Origin: Pseudomonadota bacterium
GTDB lineage: Bacteria > Pseudomonadota > Alphaproteobacteria > UBA2136 > JAPKEQ01
Length of the DNA stretch: 64,000 nt
Direction: 5' to 3'
Assembly: GCA_036141575.1 (NCBI GenBank)
Contig: JAYZXF010000006.1
Span: 1-64,000 of the forward strand
Part shown: piece after piece, positions 38,548 to 48,219 of the stretch
Numbering within the stretch: position 1 is the first letter of the stretch
Layout: the number at the start of each line of letters is the position of its first letter
Program-made: the position numbers and the translations under genes
Notes under the pieces: model-generated
Databases searched by the model: none
What the model was told of the DNA's origin: nothing
The model's input: the letters and a program-made list of their open reading frames with translations, nothing else

Positions 38548-38838
38548 ATGAAGCTCAAAGCACTAAAAACAAAAACAACGGTTGAGTTACCTGATCTCGT
38601 GACAGCAGACATCGTTACAGAACTTGCAGAACTGCTTAAGGAAGCGGTCTCTCTTGGCAAGCCAATCACTCTTTCAGCAAAAACAATTCAGCACATTGAT
38701 ACGTTGGGTTGTCAGCTTTTTGTTTCACTCAAAAATTCTTGTCAGGAAAAGAGCATCGATCTTGAGGTTAAAAACCCAACAGAAGCGTTTGAGACAAGCA
38801 TGAGTATTCTCGGCCTAGATATGATGGAGGCCTCATGA
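38548..38838 (+). CDS. STAS-domain protein (first gene of chemosensory operon)
   Basis: 96 residues, a single STAS domain ([18 protein letters not shown], then [14 protein letters not shown]). The position of the phosphorylatable Ser of anti-sigma-factor antagonists is occupied by Thr in IDTLG, so switching by phosphorylation may still work. AGGA precedes the ATG at 38548 by 6 bases. The gene overlaps the following MCP gene by ATGA. The second STAS at 45958 carries the canonical DSS, so the two STAS proteins may have different roles. Confidence 0.85.
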
Positions 38839-40265
38839 TCCGTAATCTCTTCCCAAGTATTCTTGTCTTTATCTGTGCCTTGGTAGGAGGATACTTCCTC
38901 CTAGATACGCTTGGCATGGATATTCCTGTAAGTGCGCTTATTATTGCATCAGCTCTTATTTTTACAGCCTTGGCAACTGCCTGCCTTACTTACTACTTCC
39001 TCCTTCAAGAGAAGGATAAATCTCACCTCCATATGTTTGGAAATACACATACCAAAAGTTTGCAGATCCTAAGTGAGCACATTAAAGATATTACAGAAGA
39101 TATCGAAAGCTCTATTGGCGGTATTATCCAAGAGTTCATGGATATTTCTACACAAACCAAAGAGCAATCAACTCTAATTGAAAAAGCAATCCTCGCAAGC
39201 TCTGACGTAGAGATTAGCGGCGAAAACGTAACAGCTCTTGAGCTTGTTGCCAACGTACGCGACATGCTTGAAGAAATGAGCGGGACTATTGTTTGGTTTA
39301 GCAGTAGCTCTCTTAAAATTGCTGAGTCTATTTCTGACCTGACAGGTCGCATTGAGACAGTTAACAACTTCATGGAACAAATTGATAGTATTTCTAAGCG
39401 TACAGAGCTTCTTGCTCTTAACGCAACGATTGAGGCCGCACATGCCGGTGAGCATGGTAAAGGCTTTATGGTCGTTGCCGATGAAGTCCGTAAGCTTGCC
39501 CTGCAGTCTGCTGAGTTTAACCAAAACATTCAGATGGAAGTGTCTGAGATCACAAAGCTCCTAAAAGAATCTCATACAGGTGCACGTGAAGTGATCTCTA
39601 AAGATATGACACACATGCTGGTTCATAAGAACAAGACAGAGCTGGTGATTAAAACACTGACCGAGCAAAAAGAAGAACTTATGAAGCTTCTTAATAAAGC
39701 GGCAAGAGACTCTGACAATACGGCCCAAAACATTTTTGGCATTGTCCAAAAGCTACAGTTCCAAGATCGTACAAAACAGCGTCTTGAGCATGTGGCGCTC
39801 CCTCTACATACCATTTCAAATGAACTTCAAGCCATTGTTGCTGAAGAAAAGTGGCCTGTGCATATGTCTTATGTTGATGAAGAGTTCCTTGCGTCATTCA
39901 GCAGTAAGTACACCATGTTTAGTGAGCGTGAAAAACACGATGCCATCATTGCAGGTGAAGATATTTCACATATTGAAGCCCACGATTACTGCGCAGAAAC
40001 AGAAGTTGAACTTTTTGGCGAAGATGCAGAACCAGAGCCAGCACCTGTTGAAGTGCAGACACTGCCTGAAAGCTCTGACGAGCTTGATGACATCTTCTTT
40101 GGCAATACACCAGAGCAACCAGAAGAAGAACGTGCAGTTACCGCAGAAACCGTTTCAGAACCTGAAGCTTCAACAGAAGTGAAAGAGGAAGAAGTAAAAA
40201 CACAACAAAAACCATCCAAGACAACATCAGAAGATGCGCTTGGAGATAACGTCGATCTCTTTTAA
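38835..40265 (+). CDS. Methyl-accepting chemotaxis protein without a periplasmic sensor
   Basis: 476 residues. Two adjacent N-terminal helices (about 8-26 and 34-57) leave almost no periplasmic loop, so input must come from the membrane or cytosol. The signalling hairpin is clear at about 185-222: [20 protein letters not shown] then [18 protein letters not shown]. Most of the last 100 residues are acidic and disordered, ending GDNVDLF. That ending resembles the CheD C-terminus of this operon (GDIELF) and may be a docking tag. It overlaps the STAS gene by 4 bases. Confidence 0.9.
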
Positions 40266-40292
40266 TCAAGAGTACAAACAGGGGGAAAACCT

Positions 40293-40658
40293 ATGAGTAA
40301 AACAATTTTGGCTGTAGATGATTCTGCTTCTATCCGCCAGATGGTGGGCTTCACGCTCAAGCAAGCAGGCTACACTGTAGTAGATGCTGAAGATGGCGTA
40401 GATGGTCTGAATAAAGCAAAGGGCACAAAAGCTGACCTTATTATTACCGACCTCAATATGCCCAATATGAACGGTATTGAACTGATTAAAGCGCTACGCC
40501 AAGAATCAGACTATAAATTCACACCTATTCTCATGCTGACAACAGAAAGTGATGACAGCAAAAAGGCTGAAGGTAAAAACGCTGGCGCGACAGGCTGGAT
40601 TGTTAAACCTTTCAACCCAGAGCAGCTCATTAAAGTTATTGAGCGCGTTCTTCCTTAA
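40293..40658 (+). CDS. cheY: CheY-type response regulator
   Basis: 121 residues, a lone receiver domain. The acidic pocket is Asp9-Asp10, the phosphoacceptor is Asp53 in ITDLNMPN, the switch Thr is in MLTTES, and Lys105 lies in IVKPFNP. It is expected to be phosphorylated by the CheA encoded 28 bases downstream. Flagellar motor or another target cannot be decided, since no motility genes are in the window. Confidence 0.93.
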   Translation: MSKTILAVDDSASIRQMVGFTLKQAGYTVVDAEDGVDGLNKAKGTKADLIITDLNMPNMNGIELIKALRQESDYKFTPILMLTTESDDSKKAEGKNAGATGWIVKPFNPEQLIKVIERVLP

Positions 40659-40686
40659 TTTATAAAAATAAAAAGCTGAGATTCCT

Positions 40687-42828
40687 ATGAACATAGATAT
40701 GAGCCAATTCCAGGATACGTTCCTTCAAGAAGCAACGGAAAACCTGGAAGAACTCGAACAAGGCCTTCTGGCTCTTGAAAGTGGTGATAGCGCCGATATG
40801 AACGCTATCTTTAGAGCGGCTCACTCTATTAAAGGGGGTGCAGGTACCTTTGGTTTTATGCCAATTAGTGACTTCACTCACACTGTGGAAAGCGTGCTGC
40901 AAATGGCACGTGATGGCGAACTTGATATGACGGCTGATCTTGTCACAGCTCTTCTTGCAAGTTGTGACATCATCTCAGAAATGGTTGATATTGCCAAAGC
41001 TGGTGGTGACACCGCTGAGGTAGATACAAAAGATTGCCTTGCAACGCTTCAAAAATTTGAACACTCAGACGCATCCCCCGCGACTGATGCAAATGATGAC
41101 GATTCAGACGACAATTCTGATGACCCATTTGATGACGGCCTTGCAGGTCTCTTCCTTGATAGTGAATGGCATATTACATTTAAGCCCAAACCACACCTTC
41201 CACTCACAGGTTCTGACCCTGTTAACATTCTACGTGAGTTGAAAACGCTTGGTATTATGAAAACGATTATTCATACAGAAGCGGTGCCAACAGTGGATAA
41301 ACTCTTCCCTGAAGAACTTTACCTGTGGTGGGAAATTATCCTGACAACAGATGCCAGTGAATCAGATATTAAAGATGTCTTTATGTTTGTTGAAGACGAC
41401 GCAGATATCGAGGTCAAAAAACATGATGCGCCTGCGCAAAATGTTGTACAGATTGAAGAGCCTGTTAAAGAAGAAAAAGCCGAACCAGTTGCCACACCCA
41501 TGGATGATCGCCGTGAAGGTGAAGACCGTCGTAAAAAACAAGATCGTCGCCAAGCGCCTGCTGGCAAAGAACAGCAATTTATCCGCGTTGCCATTGATAA
41601 GGTTGATAACCTGATTAACCTTGTTGGTGAGCTTGTCACAACCAACGCCATGGTGGAGCAGCACGCCGGCAATGAAGAACAGAATGACACAAGGCAACAG
41701 CAGCTGATCTCTGCTCTGCAAGATATGTCTATGCATACGCGCAATCTGCAAGAAAGCATTATGGCGATTCGTATGATGCCTGTTGATTTTGCGTTCTCTC
41801 GTTTTCCACGCATGGTGCGTGACACCGCTAACAAACTAAACAAGAAAGTGAATCTTGTTACAGATAGTGGCCAAACAGAACTTGATAAAACAGTGATTGA
41901 AAAAATCAGTGATCCTCTTACACACCTTGTGCGTAACAGTGTGGATCACGGTATTGAGCTTCCAGCAGAACGCGCCGCAGCAGGCAAGCCAGAAGAAGGC
42001 ACAGTCACACTACGCGCCTTTTATAAGGGTGGCAGCGTTATGATTACCATTACGGATGATGGTAAAGGTCTCGATAAAGAAAAAATCATAGCGAAAGCCA
42101 TTGAAAACGGTGTTATTACCTCAGCAGATGGCATGAGCGATACTGACATTTACAACATGATCTTTGAAAGCGGTTTCTCAACGGCAGAAGTCGTGACCGA
42201 CGTAAGTGGACGGGGTGTAGGTATGGACGTTGTCCGCAAAAACATCCAATCTCTTGGCGGAAGCGTATTTATTGATAGCACACCTGGTCAGGGCAGTACG
42301 TTCTCTATTTCACTGCCGCTCACCCTTGCCATTGTAGATGCCATGGCGACAAAAGTTGGTGGGGAAATTTACATGGTGCCGCTGCTTTCTATTGTGGAGA
42401 GCATTCGCCCAACAGCAGATATGATTCAACAAATTCAAGGCAATTCAGAAGTTCTGAACGTCCGTGGTGAGTACCTACCACTCCTACGTTTAGGTAGCGC
42501 TATGAACACGCCAACAGATAAATATCAGCCAGACCCAACGCAAGCGATTGCCGTCATTATTGAAGCTGAGAATGAAAAGCTTGCCCTTGTGGTCGATGAT
42601 CTACTTGGTGAACGCCAAGTGGTGATTAAGAGCATTGAAAAGAACTACCAAAGCGTGGAAGGTATTTCTGGTGCCACGATCCTTGGTGATGGTTCTGTTG
42701 CTCTTATTCTTGACTTGCCAGGCGTGATTAAACTTTCTAAGCGTGATGGCCGTTTCCAAGTGCCAGAAGCCGCTGCACCAAAAGTGACACAACAAGAAAC
42801 AACCCCAAGTACGGAGGAGCTCTCATGA
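40687..42828 (+). CDS. cheA: Chemotaxis histidine kinase CheA
   Basis: 713 residues. The P1 Hpt domain has His46 in AAHSIKGGAG. An acidic linker leads to a segment about 155-245 (WHITFKPKPHLPL...WWEIILTTDA) resembling the CheY/CheB-binding P2 region. Then P3 dimerisation, the P4 ATPase (HLVRNSVDHGIELP, ITDDGKGLD, FSTAEVVTDVSGRGVGMDVV) and the P5 CheW-like domain follow. All kinase motifs are intact. It overlaps cheW by ATGA. Confidence 0.96.
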   Translation: MNIDMSQFQDTFLQEATENLEELEQGLLALESGDSADMNAIFRAAHSIKGGAGTFGFMPISDFTHTVESVLQMARDGELDMTADLVTALLASCDIISEMVDIAKAGGDTAEVDTKDCLATLQKFEHSDASPATDANDDDSDDNSDDPFDDGLAGLFLDSEWHITFKPKPHLPLTGSDPVNILRELKTLGIMKTIIHTEAVPTVDKLFPEELYLWWEIILTTDASESDIKDVFMFVEDDADIEVKKHDAPAQNVVQIEEPVKEEKAEPVATPMDDRREGEDRRKKQDRRQAPAGKEQQFIRVAIDKVDNLINLVGELVTTNAMVEQHAGNEEQNDTRQQQLISALQDMSMHTRNLQESIMAIRMMPVDFAFSRFPRMVRDTANKLNKKVNLVTDSGQTELDKTVIEKISDPLTHLVRNSVDHGIELPAERAAAGKPEEGTVTLRAFYKGGSVMITITDDGKGLDKEKIIAKAIENGVITSADGMSDTDIYNMIFESGFSTAEVVTDVSGRGVGMDVVRKNIQSLGGSVFIDSTPGQGSTFSISLPLTLAIVDAMATKVGGEIYMVPLLSIVESIRPTADMIQQIQGNSEVLNVRGEYLPLLRLGSAMNTPTDKYQPDPTQAIAVIIEAENEKLALVVDDLLGERQVVIKSIEKNYQSVEGISGATILGDGSVALILDLPGVIKLSKRDGRFQVPEAAAPKVTQQETTPSTEELS

Positions 42829-43334
42829 ACACTGAGATCACAACAACAGGACAAGACATTATGAACTCGTCTATTGGTGAAGGCCAGTTCTTGACGTTTG
42901 AACTCAATAACGAAATGTACGGCGTCGATATCCTCAAAGTACAAGAAATTCGTGGTTGGACAGAAGTCACAAATATTCCAAACGCACCGCACTTTATTCG
43001 CGGTGTGGTTAACCTACGTGGAGCCATTGTTCCTATTCTAGATATGCGCCGTCGCTTTAATATGGATGAGCTGGTGTTCACACATCAAACTGTTGTGATT
43101 GTTGTGAATGTCTCTGACCGTACCATTGGTATGGTGGTTGACGGCGTGAGCGATGTTGTGAACATTCCAATGGAAGAGCTCCGCCCTGCCCCAGACTTTG
43201 GTACAGGTATTGATGCCAGCTTCCTACAAGGTCTCGCGCCAATTGATGAAGAGAACATGGCGATTATTCTGAACATCGATGAAATGCTACAGGCGTGCGA
43301 GCTTGTACAACTTGATAAACTAACAGATGCGTAA
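42825..43334 (+). CDS. cheW: Chemotaxis adaptor CheW
   Basis: 169 residues, one CheW domain preceded by about 18 extra N-terminal residues. Landmarks: FLTFELNNEMYGVDILKVQE, IRGVVNLRGAIVPILDMR and RTIGMVVDGVSDVV. It couples the MCP to CheA in the cytosolic array. The gene starts within the cheA stop (ATGA); a second Met (at FLTFEL minus 9) is also possible. Confidence 0.94.
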   Translation: MNTEITTTGQDIMNSSIGEGQFLTFELNNEMYGVDILKVQEIRGWTEVTNIPNAPHFIRGVVNLRGAIVPILDMRRRFNMDELVFTHQTVVIVVNVSDRTIGMVVDGVSDVVNIPMEELRPAPDFGTGIDASFLQGLAPIDEENMAIILNIDEMLQACELVQLDKLTDA

Positions 43335-43342
43335 GAGGTTCA

Positions 43343-44233
43343 ATGAGTATAGCCAACATGCAAAATCCAAATACTGAGTTTGAACTTTCACAAGAAGATT
43401 TTGAGTTCCTAAGAGACCATATTACAAAGCTCACAGGCATTCAGCTTCCTGATCATAAAAAAGCCCTCATGTACACGCGCCTTGCGCGCCGTTTACGTGC
43501 GCTAGAAATTGATTCATTCAAAGAGTACCGCACGATGCTGGATAGACAGATTGGCATGGGCGATAACGAAGAGCTTTTAAACGTTGTAAATGCTATGACA
43601 ACTAACGTAACAGCGTTTTTTAGAGAAGAGCATCACTTTAAAGATCTTACAGAGCACCTGCCAAGACTTATTGAGCGCTTTGGCCGTGTGCGTATTTGGT
43701 CCAGCGCCTCATCTACAGGTGAAGAACCATGGAGCATTGCCATGACCGTTGCTGAATATAAAGAGCAGCACCCCATGGCTGATATTAAAATTGTAGCAAG
43801 CGACATTGACACCAATGCAGTTGAAAACTGTAAAAAGGGTGAATATGAAATGTCAGAAGAAGACTTTAAAAAGCATAAGCTTCTTAAAAAATACATGGAA
43901 GAATACGAGCAAGCAGAGCCTTCTATTTCTGTGCGTAGCGGCTTTAAAAAGGCCTACCGTATCAAGCCAGAACTCAAACGTCTTGTAGATTTTAGAAACA
44001 TCAACCTTCTACATGCACCTTACGCTTTGCCGTTTGACCAACTACATGTCATCTTCTGCCGTAACGTCATTATCTACTTCGGCAAAGAAACAAAGATTGA
44101 GCTCTTTAAACAGTTTTCAAACCTGCTGCAGCCAGAAGGCCTGATGATGATTGGCCACAGTGAAAGCCTCATGGGTATTAGTGATGACTACGAACTGCTC
44201 GGCAGAACACTTTACAAGAGGAAGGGTGCATGA
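43343..44233 (+). CDS. cheR: MCP methyltransferase CheR
   Basis: 296 residues. The N-terminal helical domain (YTRLARRLRALEIDSFKEY) and SAM-dependent domain (NVTAFFREEHHF, WSSASSTGEEPWSIAM, FRNINLL, FCRNVIIYF) are complete. It methylates receptor glutamates using S-adenosylmethionine. It starts 8 bases after cheW and overlaps cheD by ATGA. No TPR or pentapeptide tether is visible. Confidence 0.95.
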   Translation: MSIANMQNPNTEFELSQEDFEFLRDHITKLTGIQLPDHKKALMYTRLARRLRALEIDSFKEYRTMLDRQIGMGDNEELLNVVNAMTTNVTAFFREEHHFKDLTEHLPRLIERFGRVRIWSSASSTGEEPWSIAMTVAEYKEQHPMADIKIVASDIDTNAVENCKKGEYEMSEEDFKKHKLLKKYMEEYEQAEPSISVRSGFKKAYRIKPELKRLVDFRNINLLHAPYALPFDQLHVIFCRNVIIYFGKETKIELFKQFSNLLQPEGLMMIGHSESLMGISDDYELLGRTLYKRKGA

Positions 44234-44835
44234 GCGAAGCGTCTTTCCATAAAAGCACCTGCAAAACCTATTTTGATAGCTACCTCAAAGCAGAAGCCAT
44301 CAAAATTCTACCGGGTGAATACCACGCTACAAACGGCGATGAGATGATCGTGACTACACTAGGGTCATGCATTAGCGCCTGCATTCGTGATACCCGCACA
44401 GGCATTGGCGGCATGAACCACTTTATGCTTCCACAGAGTGATGGTGGTGAATGGGCTGGTGCCAGCGCCTCTTCTCGCTACGGTAACTTTGCCATGGAGT
44501 ATCTCATTAACGAAATGCTCAAAATGGGTGCGTCAAAAATCTTTATGGAAGCTAAAATTTTTGGTGGTGGCCAAATGTTTGGTGAAACGCAGCTCAACGT
44601 GGGCCGACGTAACGAAAACTTTGCTCTCGAATACCTTAAAACAGAGGGCATCCGTGTTGCTGCACATGATGTTGGCGGCGCCTATTCTAGGAAAGTTTAC
44701 TTCCAGCCAAGTACAGGGAAAGTCATGTTGAAAAAGCTGACTGTTCTTAAGAACGATACCATTCTTAAACGTGAAAAAGAGTACGAGCAAACGCTCGCAA
44801 CAGACAAAATTGATGGGGATATTGAACTGTTTTAA
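44230..44835 (+). CDS. cheD: Chemoreceptor glutamine deamidase CheD
   Basis: 201 residues. The catalytic Cys is in TTLGSCISACIRD and the His in GGMNHFMLPQ, with FGGGQMF and VGRRNENFALEYL following. It deamidates receptor glutamines and can act as a CheY-P-linked regulator. The C-terminal tail ends KIDGDIELF, similar to the last residues of the MCP in this operon. Start overlaps the cheR stop. Confidence 0.94.
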   Translation: MSEASFHKSTCKTYFDSYLKAEAIKILPGEYHATNGDEMIVTTLGSCISACIRDTRTGIGGMNHFMLPQSDGGEWAGASASSRYGNFAMEYLINEMLKMGASKIFMEAKIFGGGQMFGETQLNVGRRNENFALEYLKTEGIRVAAHDVGGAYSRKVYFQPSTGKVMLKKLTVLKNDTILKREKEYEQTLATDKIDGDIELF

Positions 44836-44853
44836 TGGGTTCATAGGGGACAT

Positions 44854-45954
44854 ATGACAACAGATAAAATTAAAGCACTCGTCGTTGATGATTCACTCAG
44901 TATTCGCCTGCTTATTAAAGGCATGCTTGAGAAATCAGGTCGCGTTAAAGTGGTTGCCACAGCAGAAGATGGCCGCGACGCACTACAAAAAATTAAAGAG
45001 CATCAACCTGATGTGATTACGCTGGATGTTGAAATGCCTGAAATGGATGGCATTGAATGCTTGAAACGCATTATGGCACTCCGTCCAACACCTGTGGTGA
45101 TGATCTCTACCCTCACGGAAAGAGGCAGTCGCACAGCACTCAAAGCGCTTGCCCTTGGTGCCATCGATGTATTTGGTAAGCCAAGTCAAAAATCAGCTGA
45201 AATTGCACAATACCAAGACGATATCATTCGTATGGTTGAGGCTGCTGCACACGCTCGCGTACAAGGCTATGCGCCGAGACCTGCTCTTAAAAACAAACCG
45301 CCCCTTCATAAGCCTGTTCATGACGAAGGCATGACAAAAAACATTCTTATTGATGATTTCATGACACCTGTAAGAAAAAGTAGAGAGATGGGTCCATGCA
45401 TAGCCATTGGTGCTTCAACGGGCGGCACAGAGGCACTTAAAACATTTGTGGAACCTCTTAAAGCACCCTGCCCGCCTATTTTTGTTGTTCAGCATATTGC
45501 TGCAGGGTTTAGCCAAGCCTTTGCAGAAAGCCTGAATAAAAAAACTGATCTTACCGTAGTTGAAGCTAAAAACGGTATGACTGTTGAAGACAACCATATT
45601 TATATTGCGCCTGCGACACATCACCTCACAGTTCGTGGCGTTGGTAGCCTCGTGCGTTGTAACGTGATTGAAGGCCCACGTATTAACCGTCATAAACCAT
45701 CTGTAGATGTTCTATTCAGATCCGTACATGAAGTGTACGGCACAGGTGCTGTAGGTGTTGTACTCACCGGCATGGGTGATGACGGCGCACGAGGCTTGAA
45801 AGAATTAAAAGATATGGGTGCCACAACGTACGCACAAGACGAAGCGTCTAGCACAGTTTACGGCATGCCTCGCGCTGCAAAAGACATGGATGCAGCCTCA
45901 CATATTTTACCACTTAAAGACATTCCACATCATATTCAAAAGAAGGGAAAATAA
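44854..45954 (+). CDS. cheB: Protein-glutamate methylesterase CheB
   Basis: 366 residues. An N-terminal receiver with LDVEMPEMDG (phosphoacceptor Asp) is followed by a methylesterase domain with the catalytic triad: Ser in AIGASTGGTEAL, His in VVQHIAAGFS, and Asp in VLTGMGDDGARG. It removes receptor methyl groups when phosphorylated by CheA. The linker between domains (about 125-175) is basic and disordered. The stop lies 3 bases before the next ATG. Confidence 0.95.
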   Translation: MTTDKIKALVVDDSLSIRLLIKGMLEKSGRVKVVATAEDGRDALQKIKEHQPDVITLDVEMPEMDGIECLKRIMALRPTPVVMISTLTERGSRTALKALALGAIDVFGKPSQKSAEIAQYQDDIIRMVEAAAHARVQGYAPRPALKNKPPLHKPVHDEGMTKNILIDDFMTPVRKSREMGPCIAIGASTGGTEALKTFVEPLKAPCPPIFVVQHIAAGFSQAFAESLNKKTDLTVVEAKNGMTVEDNHIYIAPATHHLTVRGVGSLVRCNVIEGPRINRHKPSVDVLFRSVHEVYGTGAVGVVLTGMGDDGARGLKELKDMGATTYAQDEASSTVYGMPRAAKDMDAASHILPLKDIPHHIQKKGK

Positions 45955-45957
45955 GAC

Positions 45958-46269
45958 ATGAATGTTATTGAAAACGGTGATAACACAACGAGTGTAATCC
46001 TAGATGAGAGTTTTGACTTTGAATCTCATAAAGCATTTAGAGATATGATTAAAAGCATTATTACAAAGCGCCCAGAGCACCTGATTATTGACTTTGGTAA
46101 GGTTGAGTACATTGACTCATCTGCCCTTGGTATGCTGATGCTTGCACGCCAAGAAGCCAGCACAATTGATTGCAAAATGAAGCTTGTAAATGTTGAAGAC
46201 GGCCACACGCTGAACGTTCTTAAGCTTGTAAAGTTTGACACTCTATTTGATATCGAAACAAAGGCGTAA
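45958..46269 (+). CDS. STAS anti-sigma-factor antagonist
   Basis: 103 residues. YIDSSALGMLMLAR holds the canonical phosphorylatable Ser (54 or 55) of SpoIIAA/RsbV-type antagonists. This is the expected substrate and partner of the kinase-phosphatase encoded 9 bases downstream, making a complete partner-switching module except for a visible sigma factor. Its target protein is unknown. Confidence 0.9.
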   Translation: MNVIENGDNTTSVILDESFDFESHKAFRDMIKSIITKRPEHLIIDFGKVEYIDSSALGMLMLARQEASTIDCKMKLVNVEDGHTLNVLKLVKFDTLFDIETKA

Positions 46270-46278
46270 CCCACACCT

Positions 46279-48219
46279 ATGGATTTAAACCATCTTCACT
46301 TTGACAGAAGCGTCCCACGCGCTGAACGTAAACCTTTCTACACACATATGACAGAAGGGTTCGGTGCACCAGAGAAAAGTATTCTCGTGACGAAGGAACT
46401 CCAGAAGAATCAGCTCTTCTTCACACCGCTCTACCACATCTACCTAATTGGAGATGATCTGAATGGTTTGATTGATCACCTTAAGGAGATTCCCGATCCT
46501 GAAGATGGCACAATCCTAACGATTATTGCCACAAGTGCATCGCTGCATAAAGCAGGCCTGCCAGAGCATATTGAGCTCTATCTTAAGCAACAAGAATACC
46601 TTGATCATGCACATGCCCATACGTTTAAACTTGCCTTGCAAGAAAGCGTTATGAATGCCATTGAACATGGTAATCTTGGCCTTTCAGAGAAAAAGAAAGA
46701 GTTTTCTCAAAAGTCAGATGGCCTCATCCAGTTCCATAAGCATGTGGAATCTCTCCTGAAAGAGGAAGAGCATGCCAACACACGTGTCATTGTGCGCGTT
46801 CATATGCAAGATGGACTCCTCTCTACAAGTATTGAAGACTTTGGTGAAGGCTTTGATTACCGAAGCGTTATGAAGGACTCTAAAAAACAAGCAAAAGATG
46901 ATTCTACTGCAGGCTCTGGCCGTGGGATTGATATCATGCTCCGCAGTACAATTCACTTTGGATTTGACCAAGGTGGTCGGCGCGTTAAGTTTGCTGTCCC
47001 AGCTCTAAACAGACCTGAAATTAGTAAACACCTGCGTCCAATTTCAACAGAAGAAATTAAAAATACGTCTAAAATTCTTCTGGTAGATGACCAAGAAATT
47101 AACGTCACGCAGATGAAAGAGTTTCTGATCCGTGATGGTTACAAACATATCTTTACAGCTGAAAATGGTATTGAGGCCGTTAAGGTGGCTGTAAACCAGC
47201 AACCAGACATTATCCTTATGGATATTATTATGCCTGAGATGGATGGTTTTGAAGCTTGTAAGCGTCTTAAAATTGCAGAGGCTACAGCAGATATTCCTGT
47301 TCTGTTCCTGTCTGGTCTTACAGATAGTGGTAACCGCGCACAGGGTTATACCCTTGGTGCCGTTGACTATATTAACAAGCCCATTGACCGCGACGAGTTT
47401 CTTGCGCGTACGCTTGTACACCTTCAAAACGGTTTGCAACGTCGCATGATGCGTTCTTACTCTGAGTATATTCGTAACGAGCTTCAAAAAGCACGTCTTT
47501 TCCAAAAGTCTCTGCTGCCTGATGATCAGCAGATTAAACGCATGATTGATACGCATAAAACCTACATTGAAATGGCAATGATCTCTTGTGATGAGCTGGC
47601 TGGTGACTACATTTCTGCCTATGAAATTGATGATGAGCACCTTGCTGTCATCATGGCAGACTTCACAGGACACGGCCTAAGCGCCGCCCTCCATACCATT
47701 TGGTTAGACGCAATTCTCAAAGAGCTTCAATCTTCTGCACATGACCCTGTTAAACTGATGAGTGATTTGAATGATAACCTCTTCAACGTACTCGCTGTTG
47801 AACAGTTTGCAACATGTTTCTACGGTGTTTTAAACACCAAGACCGGTGACTTTAAGTACATTAGTGCCGGCGCACCTGAAGTGCTACACTTTGACTCTAA
47901 AGGCGCTCTGCAAAAACCACTCAAAGCCGCCGGCCTTCCCCTTGGTATTATCCCAAGTAAAGATCTTGGCCTTGAGATGGAAACCATCACCCTACACAGC
48001 TGTGATTCACTCATGCTCTATAGTGACGCGTTGGTTGAAACAACGCACCGCGGTAAAAACATGTGGGATAAGTCTTATATTACAGGCCTAGCAGGACGCA
48101 TTCTTTCAGAAGAACAACCACTGCTTCATGGTATCAGAAAAGCCTTCTACCGTAGCGCTGATCTCCCGCTTCGCGACGATTTAAGCCTGATGACAATTGA
48201 ATGGCAGCCTGAAAAGTAA
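46279..48219 (+). CDS. RsbW-like ATPase / receiver / SpoIIE-RsbU phosphatase fusion
   Basis: 646 residues with three modules. About 100-245 is an anti-sigma kinase-type HATPase (N-box ESVMNAIEHGN, IEDFGEGFD, GSGRGIDIML). About 263-385 is a receiver (KILLVDDQEINV, phosphoacceptor in LMDIIMPEMDG, K in YINKPIDR). About 395-640 is a PP2C-type SpoIIE phosphatase (coiled coil LQKARLFQKSLLP, DELAGDYIS, ADFTGHGLSAA, LRDDLSLM). So kinase and phosphatase for the STAS protein may share one chain, gated by phosphorylation from CheA. This is the operon's likely output. Confidence 0.92.
   Translation: MDLNHLHFDRSVPRAERKPFYTHMTEGFGAPEKSILVTKELQKNQLFFTPLYHIYLIGDDLNGLIDHLKEIPDPEDGTILTIIATSASLHKAGLPEHIELYLKQQEYLDHAHAHTFKLALQESVMNAIEHGNLGLSEKKKEFSQKSDGLIQFHKHVESLLKEEEHANTRVIVRVHMQDGLLSTSIEDFGEGFDYRSVMKDSKKQAKDDSTAGSGRGIDIMLRSTIHFGFDQGGRRVKFAVPALNRPEISKHLRPISTEEIKNTSKILLVDDQEINVTQMKEFLIRDGYKHIFTAENGIEAVKVAVNQQPDIILMDIIMPEMDGFEACKRLKIAEATADIPVLFLSGLTDSGNRAQGYTLGAVDYINKPIDRDEFLARTLVHLQNGLQRRMMRSYSEYIRNELQKARLFQKSLLPDDQQIKRMIDTHKTYIEMAMISCDELAGDYISAYEIDDEHLAVIMADFTGHGLSAALHTIWLDAILKELQSSAHDPVKLMSDLNDNLFNVLAVEQFATCFYGVLNTKTGDFKYISAGAPEVLHFDSKGALQKPLKAAGLPLGIIPSKDLGLEMETITLHSCDSLMLYSDALVETTHRGKNMWDKSYITGLAGRILSEEQPLLHGIRKAFYRSADLPLRDDLSLMTIEWQPEK

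Follow-up and report, generated by a model that had tools for sequence, protein, structure and literature searches.

An alphaproteobacterial variant of the ancestral F7 chemosensory system, with a probable partner-switch output and a CheZ-type motif in its McpA-like protein

Introduction

Stage 1 F7 chemosensory clusters were described in gammaproteobacteria by Ortega et al. in 2020, and their function is unclear (PMC7184735). Here we describe a related operon from an alphaproteobacterium. It occupies positions 38548-48219 of the window, by which we mean the whole 64,000-nucleotide stretch analysed (contig JAYZXF010000006.1 of assembly GCA_036141575.1, Pseudomonadota bacterium). Like the stage 1 F7 clusters, it encodes a STAS protein, CheY, CheA, CheW, CheR, CheD, CheB, an McpA-like protein, a second STAS protein and a serine phosphatase, it lacks cheZ, and it coexists with a separate flagellar system (PMC7184735). 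Unlike in those clusters, the McpA-like gene comes second, before cheY, there is a single cheW, no Aer2-like receptor is linked, and kinase, receiver and phosphatase are joined in one 646-aa protein with the order kinase-receiver-PP2C, here called KRP (46279..48219, + strand).

The idea of a Che pathway that feeds a partner switch has already been published for Che1 and CrsR of Shewanella (PMC9855816), and Che1-CrsR/CrsA of Shewanella oneidensis is the closest studied case. It is likewise encoded in one operon, which has six che genes, two MCPs, a kinase/phosphatase response regulator and a STAS antagonist (PMC9855816). However, the CrsR homologue HsbR has the order receiver-PP2C-kinase (PMC6482189), and the target of CrsR is RpoS. 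The domain order of the window protein is that of SypE from Vibrio fischeri, which has an N-terminal serine kinase, a central receiver and a C-terminal PP2C domain and works with the small STAS protein SypA (PMC10120452). SypE, in turn, is driven by RscS, has no linked CheA and lies outside a che operon (PMC10120452).

The window operon is an alphaproteobacterial variant of the ancestral non-flagellar F7 system. The original prediction, made from the letters of the window, was of a Che pathway wired to a partner switch; this idea is plausible, and such wiring is largely known already. The new part is a phosphatase motif in a gene that looks like a sensor. On balance, we favour an ancestral F7 system with a partner-switch output, in which the McpA-like protein would act as a phosphatase of phosphorylated CheY (CheY-P), as the best explanation overall.

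The McpA-like protein

The second gene of the operon (38835..40265, + strand) encodes a 476-aa protein with two transmembrane helices, an MCP hairpin, a CheZ-like helix and the C-terminus DNVDLF, as seen from its Pfam MCPsignal match, an alignment (A6), its distribution and a structural model. (All Pfam calls given for the operon proteins are above cut-off.) It has the features of McpA-like proteins: an MCP domain, a conserved C-terminus ending in x-[VI]-x-x-F and no aromatic residue at position 2. Alignment and profile comparison place a CheZ-type DxxxQ motif, QFQDRTKQ, at residues 308-315 (D311 and Q315; 39756..39779, + strand). DxxxQ is the catalytic pair of CheZ (PMC7750401), and the CheZ of the same order reads NFQDLTGQR. 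In an alignment of 17 McpA-like proteins, invariance is limited to the QFQD---Q element, a single F and the final F. In a wider sample the D and Q, which are almost without variation across proteobacteria, are kept though their neighbours vary (QFED, QFAD, QFYD), with the exception of one paralogue. The proteins aligned include the Vibrio homologue from record L271 and not PA0180 itself.

Comparison of the McpA-like C-terminal family with CheZ by hhalign gave a score of 41.1 (P 1e-5), against at most 19.1 for 100 column shuffles, 19.4 for true MCPs and 14.7 when 11 motif columns were removed. Since the signal vanishes with these columns, homology to CheZ over the whole length was rejected. The C-terminal profile nevertheless recovers real CheZ proteins in whole genomes (E 4e-7 and 7e-7). 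The two families thus share the FQDxxxQ helix of ~31 residues and an acidic C-terminal peptide, whereas the McpA-like proteins are built like MCPs and have no detectable similarity to CheZ beyond the helix.

The motif also occurs where the receptor parts are reduced. A copy from Curvivirga (L106) has lost the MCP tip and retains the FQDxxxQ element, and stand-alone copies in Nitrospira (L160:2678-3265 and L177:27-458) have no MCP domain at all, carry QFQDITRQ, end in VTLF and lie directly before cheY. In one further genome (G027), a 696-aa McpA-like frame that the C-terminal profile matches twice (L235:9098-11188) adjoins genes for STAS and a fused kinase-receiver-PP2C protein.

The two N-terminal helices of the window protein are separated by a loop of ~5 residues and there is no periplasmic domain, also in the model, which bears out the expectation of an MCP almost devoid of one. 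The conclusion drawn from this, that the signal is internal, is not supported: the protein is McpA-like and probably not a sensor, because the CheZ-type DxxxQ helix and the C-terminal xLF peptide are its most conserved features, and the missing periplasmic domain is then uninformative about the signal. The simplest reading of its sequence would be a CheY-P phosphatase built on the frame of an MCP. For McpA-like proteins as a group, which occur in many F7 systems of proteobacteria, we put at about even the chance that they are CheZ-type CheY-P phosphatases whose MCP scaffold places them in chemosensory arrays.

Several results count against this assignment. The Pfam CheZ family (PF04344) gave no match to the window protein at E values up to 1, and it was not filed as CheZ. 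The likeness is limited to ~31 residues, and homology is therefore not distinguishable from convergence. What the fold searches found were MCPs or generic helices, with no CheZ match in the PDB. Shewanella McpA has been reported in core units with the flagellar CheA3, as a receptor would be. Its overproduction raises swimming; this and the association with CheA3 fit a phosphatase, but also a receptor. AlphaFold models are helical and uninformative (mean predicted local distance difference test score 67.6 for the window protein and 72.0 for the tip-less L106 copy). A PDB profile match to the CesA chaperone lies outside the motif and was taken as a coiled-coil chance hit. At residues 120-133 the long helix of the McpA-like proteins is broken by a predicted small β-hairpin, which has a similar sequence in relatives.

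As the main alternative, the McpA-like protein may be a genuine receptor that responds to an internal or membrane signal and uses its conserved C-terminus only for docking of CheR, CheB or CheD. The protein retains most of the MCP hairpin tip (MCPsignal match 9e-24), its C-terminal peptide is of a type that is also found in CheD, and the clustering of Shewanella McpA with CheA3 and CheW3 and the swimming effect would suit a receptor as well. However, the FQDxxxQ element outlasts the tip in Curvivirga and the whole MCP domain in Nitrospira, the receptors in the same operons have their own W/F-x-x-F tethers, and deletion of McpA leaves the F7 array unaffected (PMC7184735). We regard this alternative as a serious one, if somewhat short of an even chance.

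If the phosphatase assignment is true, it would explain three published features of the F7 systems, namely the absence of cheZ from the ancestral clusters, the dispensability of McpA for F7 arrays and the strikingly conserved McpA C-terminus (PMC7184735), and possibly also the presence of McpA in flagellar arrays and the increased swimming on its overproduction. We found no paper that links McpA-like proteins to CheZ, in a search that covered few subscription papers and so does not prove novelty.

A shared C-terminal peptide and a candidate receptor

The McpA-like proteins and the CheD proteins of these operons share a type of tail (IELF, VELF; VTLF in both proteins of Nitrospira), the strict form of which was matched by 0 of 1140 other open reading frames (ORFs). 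From lineage to lineage, the tails of CheD and McpA change in step. The window operon encodes no Aer2-like receptor with a CheR-tether pentapeptide, and no second MCP. The nearest Aer2-like candidate in the genome is an unlinked MCP (C17:53821; L050:3821-5752) that ends in DDDDIDLF; CheD and the McpA-like protein share with it the ending D[IV][ED]LF. Their tails imply that the three proteins may share a docking partner, and they make the DDDDIDLF protein a candidate receptor for the window system. In one sister genome (G003), a 507-aa MCP without a CheR tether is linked to the operon.

The operon and its output switch

The genome that contains the window (G000; 1.85 Mb, 97.7% complete) was compared with that of a congener (G002), with further genomes of the order (G001, G003, G005 and G006) and with family f6; the order includes the metagenome-assembled genome UBA2136. 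Greedy ORF picking overlooks genes where loci are GC-rich, and the gene maps made in this way were replaced by a recount of all ORFs.

The ten genes of the window lie tightly packed on the + strand with intergenic gaps of -4 to +28 bases and, for this reason, likely form one operon. Scans for promoters and terminators gave chance-level results only. The flanking genes, named from their translations, are on the opposite strand, with recA/recX upstream and an RND-type efflux system downstream. First comes STAS1, a STAS_2-type protein of 96 aa (38548..38838; Pfam STAS_2/STAS, alignment A10), followed by the McpA-like gene. CheY is a single receiver of 121 aa (40293..40658; Response_reg). CheA is a 713-aa protein (40687..42828) with Hpt, dimerisation, HATPase and CheW domains that a tree assigns to the F7 class. 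Next are CheW (42825..43334), CheR (43343..44233), CheD (44230..44835), which ends in GDIELF, the peptide type common to McpA-like proteins, and CheB (44854..45954), all identified with Pfam; a genome search found no other CheR or CheB. The operon ends with STAS2 (45958..46269), an anti-sigma-antagonist-type STAS protein by Pfam and alignment, and KRP (HATPase_c_2, Response_reg and SpoIIE/PP2C domains). The gene content foreseen in the original prediction, ten co-directional genes joining a full Che set to two STAS proteins and a kinase-receiver-phosphatase fusion, is thus confirmed by Pfam and by inspection of the active sites.

KRP has the domain order of SypE and its catalytic residues are intact. 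The RsbW-type kinase has its N-box (E122/N126) and DxGxG motif (187-191), the receiver has D270, D271, D315 and K367, and the PP2C domain has D443, D461, GHG (464-466), D583 and D633/D634. The DSS-type acceptor that had been read in one of the STAS proteins was found again at D53 S54 of STAS2, and these two residues are invariant in 12 of 12 homologues. The corresponding position of STAS1 is T52 in the window and T, S or A in homologues; it is probably not a conserved phosphoacceptor, judging from this variation, and STAS1 was rejected as a second phospho-switch.

The following mechanism is proposed. Receptors other than the McpA-like protein would control CheA, which would pass phosphate to CheY, CheB and the receiver of KRP. 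By analogy with SypE/SypA and CrsR/CrsA, phosphorylation of the receiver would toggle KRP between phosphorylating and dephosphorylating STAS2 at Ser54, and STAS2 would then engage a partner protein. The McpA-like protein, as an array-bound CheZ-type CheY-P phosphatase, would end the signal.

For the last step of the output there is a rival. KRP itself might be the anti-sigma factor, as CrsR is for RpoS, with the kinase domain holding a sigma factor that STAS2 releases. CrsR provides a precedent from a Che operon, and no second RsbW-type kinase over the cut-off was found in the genome, so that KRP is the sole one and no separate anti-sigma factor was found. On the other hand, a search of the genome gave only four Sigma70_r2 proteins (frames of 682, 296, 186 and 180 aa), and none of them was shown to be RpoS; in SypE/SypA, where the domains have the same order, it is the STAS protein that acts downstream. 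We consider the rival less likely than not. RpoS as a target by analogy was dropped since no RpoS was shown; a 288-aa sigma factor is listed without classification. Gene linkage points to no partner of STAS2.

F7 class and the separate flagellar system

In a CheA tree built without F6 and F8 reference sequences, the window CheA falls in a clade (support 97/83) with the CheAs of the stage-1-like Vibrio cluster, of E. coli and of the alphaproteobacterial operons, and the flagellar CheA of the same genome is placed apart from it with support 100/100. (The CheAs of G005 and UBA2136 in this set are identical.) The genome has flagellar genes, including FlhA with a CheW nearby, and a flagellar CheA-CheZ-CheY set at C6:126-137 kb that adjoins FliM, FliL, FliD and flagellin. 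The window operon is thus not the obvious flagellar system. It combines an F7 CheA and cheR-cheD-cheB with McpA-like, STAS and serine phosphatase genes beside the separate flagellar system, as the ancestral type does; because a linked Aer2-like receptor is absent, it was filed as a variant on the basis of CheA phylogeny and gene set.

Other families of the order have cheB between flagellar cheZ and cheA; in G000 and its congener this gene is gone, leaving a gap of ~50 bases (L048:6309-9394, which is G000 C6:126-129 kb, and L088:7231-10280). No second CheR or CheB was found in the 97.7% complete window genome. With flagellar cheB and cheR lost in the genus, the CheR and CheB of the window may also adapt flagellar receptors.

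Conservation of the unit

The full operon is present in G000 and G006, and in G005 with all genes except an unconfirmed STAS1; the copies in G001 and G002 are contig-end fragments. In G003 it is split between two contigs, one of which carries STAS1-McpA-CheY-CheA-CheW-CheR-CheD and the other a second CheY-STAS2-KRP unit. The second CheY copy there stands beside STAS2 and KRP and is separate from the main che operon (L053:8113-11003, L084:47-5938). In family f6, KRP is kept in some genomes, mostly with STAS2, and the sole CheA found is of the flagellar type, which indicates that the output module is separable from the Che module. Among the f6 receivers, those in three genomes of one genus are degenerate, and two genomes of a second genus have intact ones.

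A scan for KRP relatives yielded 80 named loci, 28 of which have CheA, CheR, CheD or CheB nearby, a count that is too low where contigs are short. The linked loci come from Kiloniella, Maricaulis, Hirschia, Curvivirga, Rhizobiales, Nitrospira, one betaproteobacterium and others. Kinase and receiver-phosphatase are mostly separate genes, and the form fused as kinase-receiver-phosphatase was found in the taxonomic order of the window and in G027. Starting from the other end, a class-wide search for McpA-like proteins gave 24 loci, with CheA nearby in 20, CheR, CheD or CheB in 21, STAS in 19, a kinase in 16 and PP2C in 15. The Vibrio record (L271) has the order STAS-CheY-CheA-CheW-CheW-receptor-CheR-CheD-CheB-McpA-STAS-regulator, which is the published stage 1 F7 order (PMC7184735). 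Since the gene set recurs in related genera, in unrelated alphaproteobacteria, in Nitrospira and in Vibrio, the operon is a conserved system and not a chance neighbourhood.

Two observations speak against an obligatory coupling of Che genes and KRP. In sister genomes STAS2-KRP is found where F7 che genes are missing, in some cases with an intact receiver, which implies that other kinases can drive it, and the Hirschia locus is Che-linked yet its receiver reads as degenerate in the scan. Receivers are intact in 41 of 44 Che-linked and 31 of 40 unlinked cases, a difference too weak on its own to serve as proof of coupling. Three loci without linked che genes (L058, L059 and L060) encode kinase-PP2C proteins in which the acidic pair and the lysine of the receiver are lost.

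An output other than a motor, as anticipated, agrees with the separate flagellar Che set, the distinct position of the F7 CheA and the company that STAS2 and kinase/phosphatase genes keep with Che genes in many different genera; a partner switch is the probable output. It is improbable that the Che genes have the flagellum, or both systems, as their target, with STAS and KRP genes as independent neighbours: the loss of flagellar cheB, by which flagellar receptors may depend on the sole CheR and CheB in the operon, and the occurrence of STAS2-KRP alone in f6 would fit, but flagellar CheA, CheY, CheZ, CheW and FliM are encoded elsewhere, the linkage of che genes to STAS, PP2C and kinase genes recurs across classes and phyla, and the second cheY of G003 sits inside the STAS2-KRP unit, apart from cheA.

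Significance

The E. coli chemotaxis system descends from ancestral F7 systems, for which the literature gives no clear function (PMC7184735). In the window, the complete unit is seen in an alphaproteobacterium with a small genome, and its kinase-receiver-phosphatase output is a single protein. In having lost flagellar cheB and cheR, the genus resembles an early or intermediate stage of the published process by which F7 takes control of the flagellum. Finally, the CheZ-type helix gives the unexplained conserved region of McpA-like proteins a specific, testable role.

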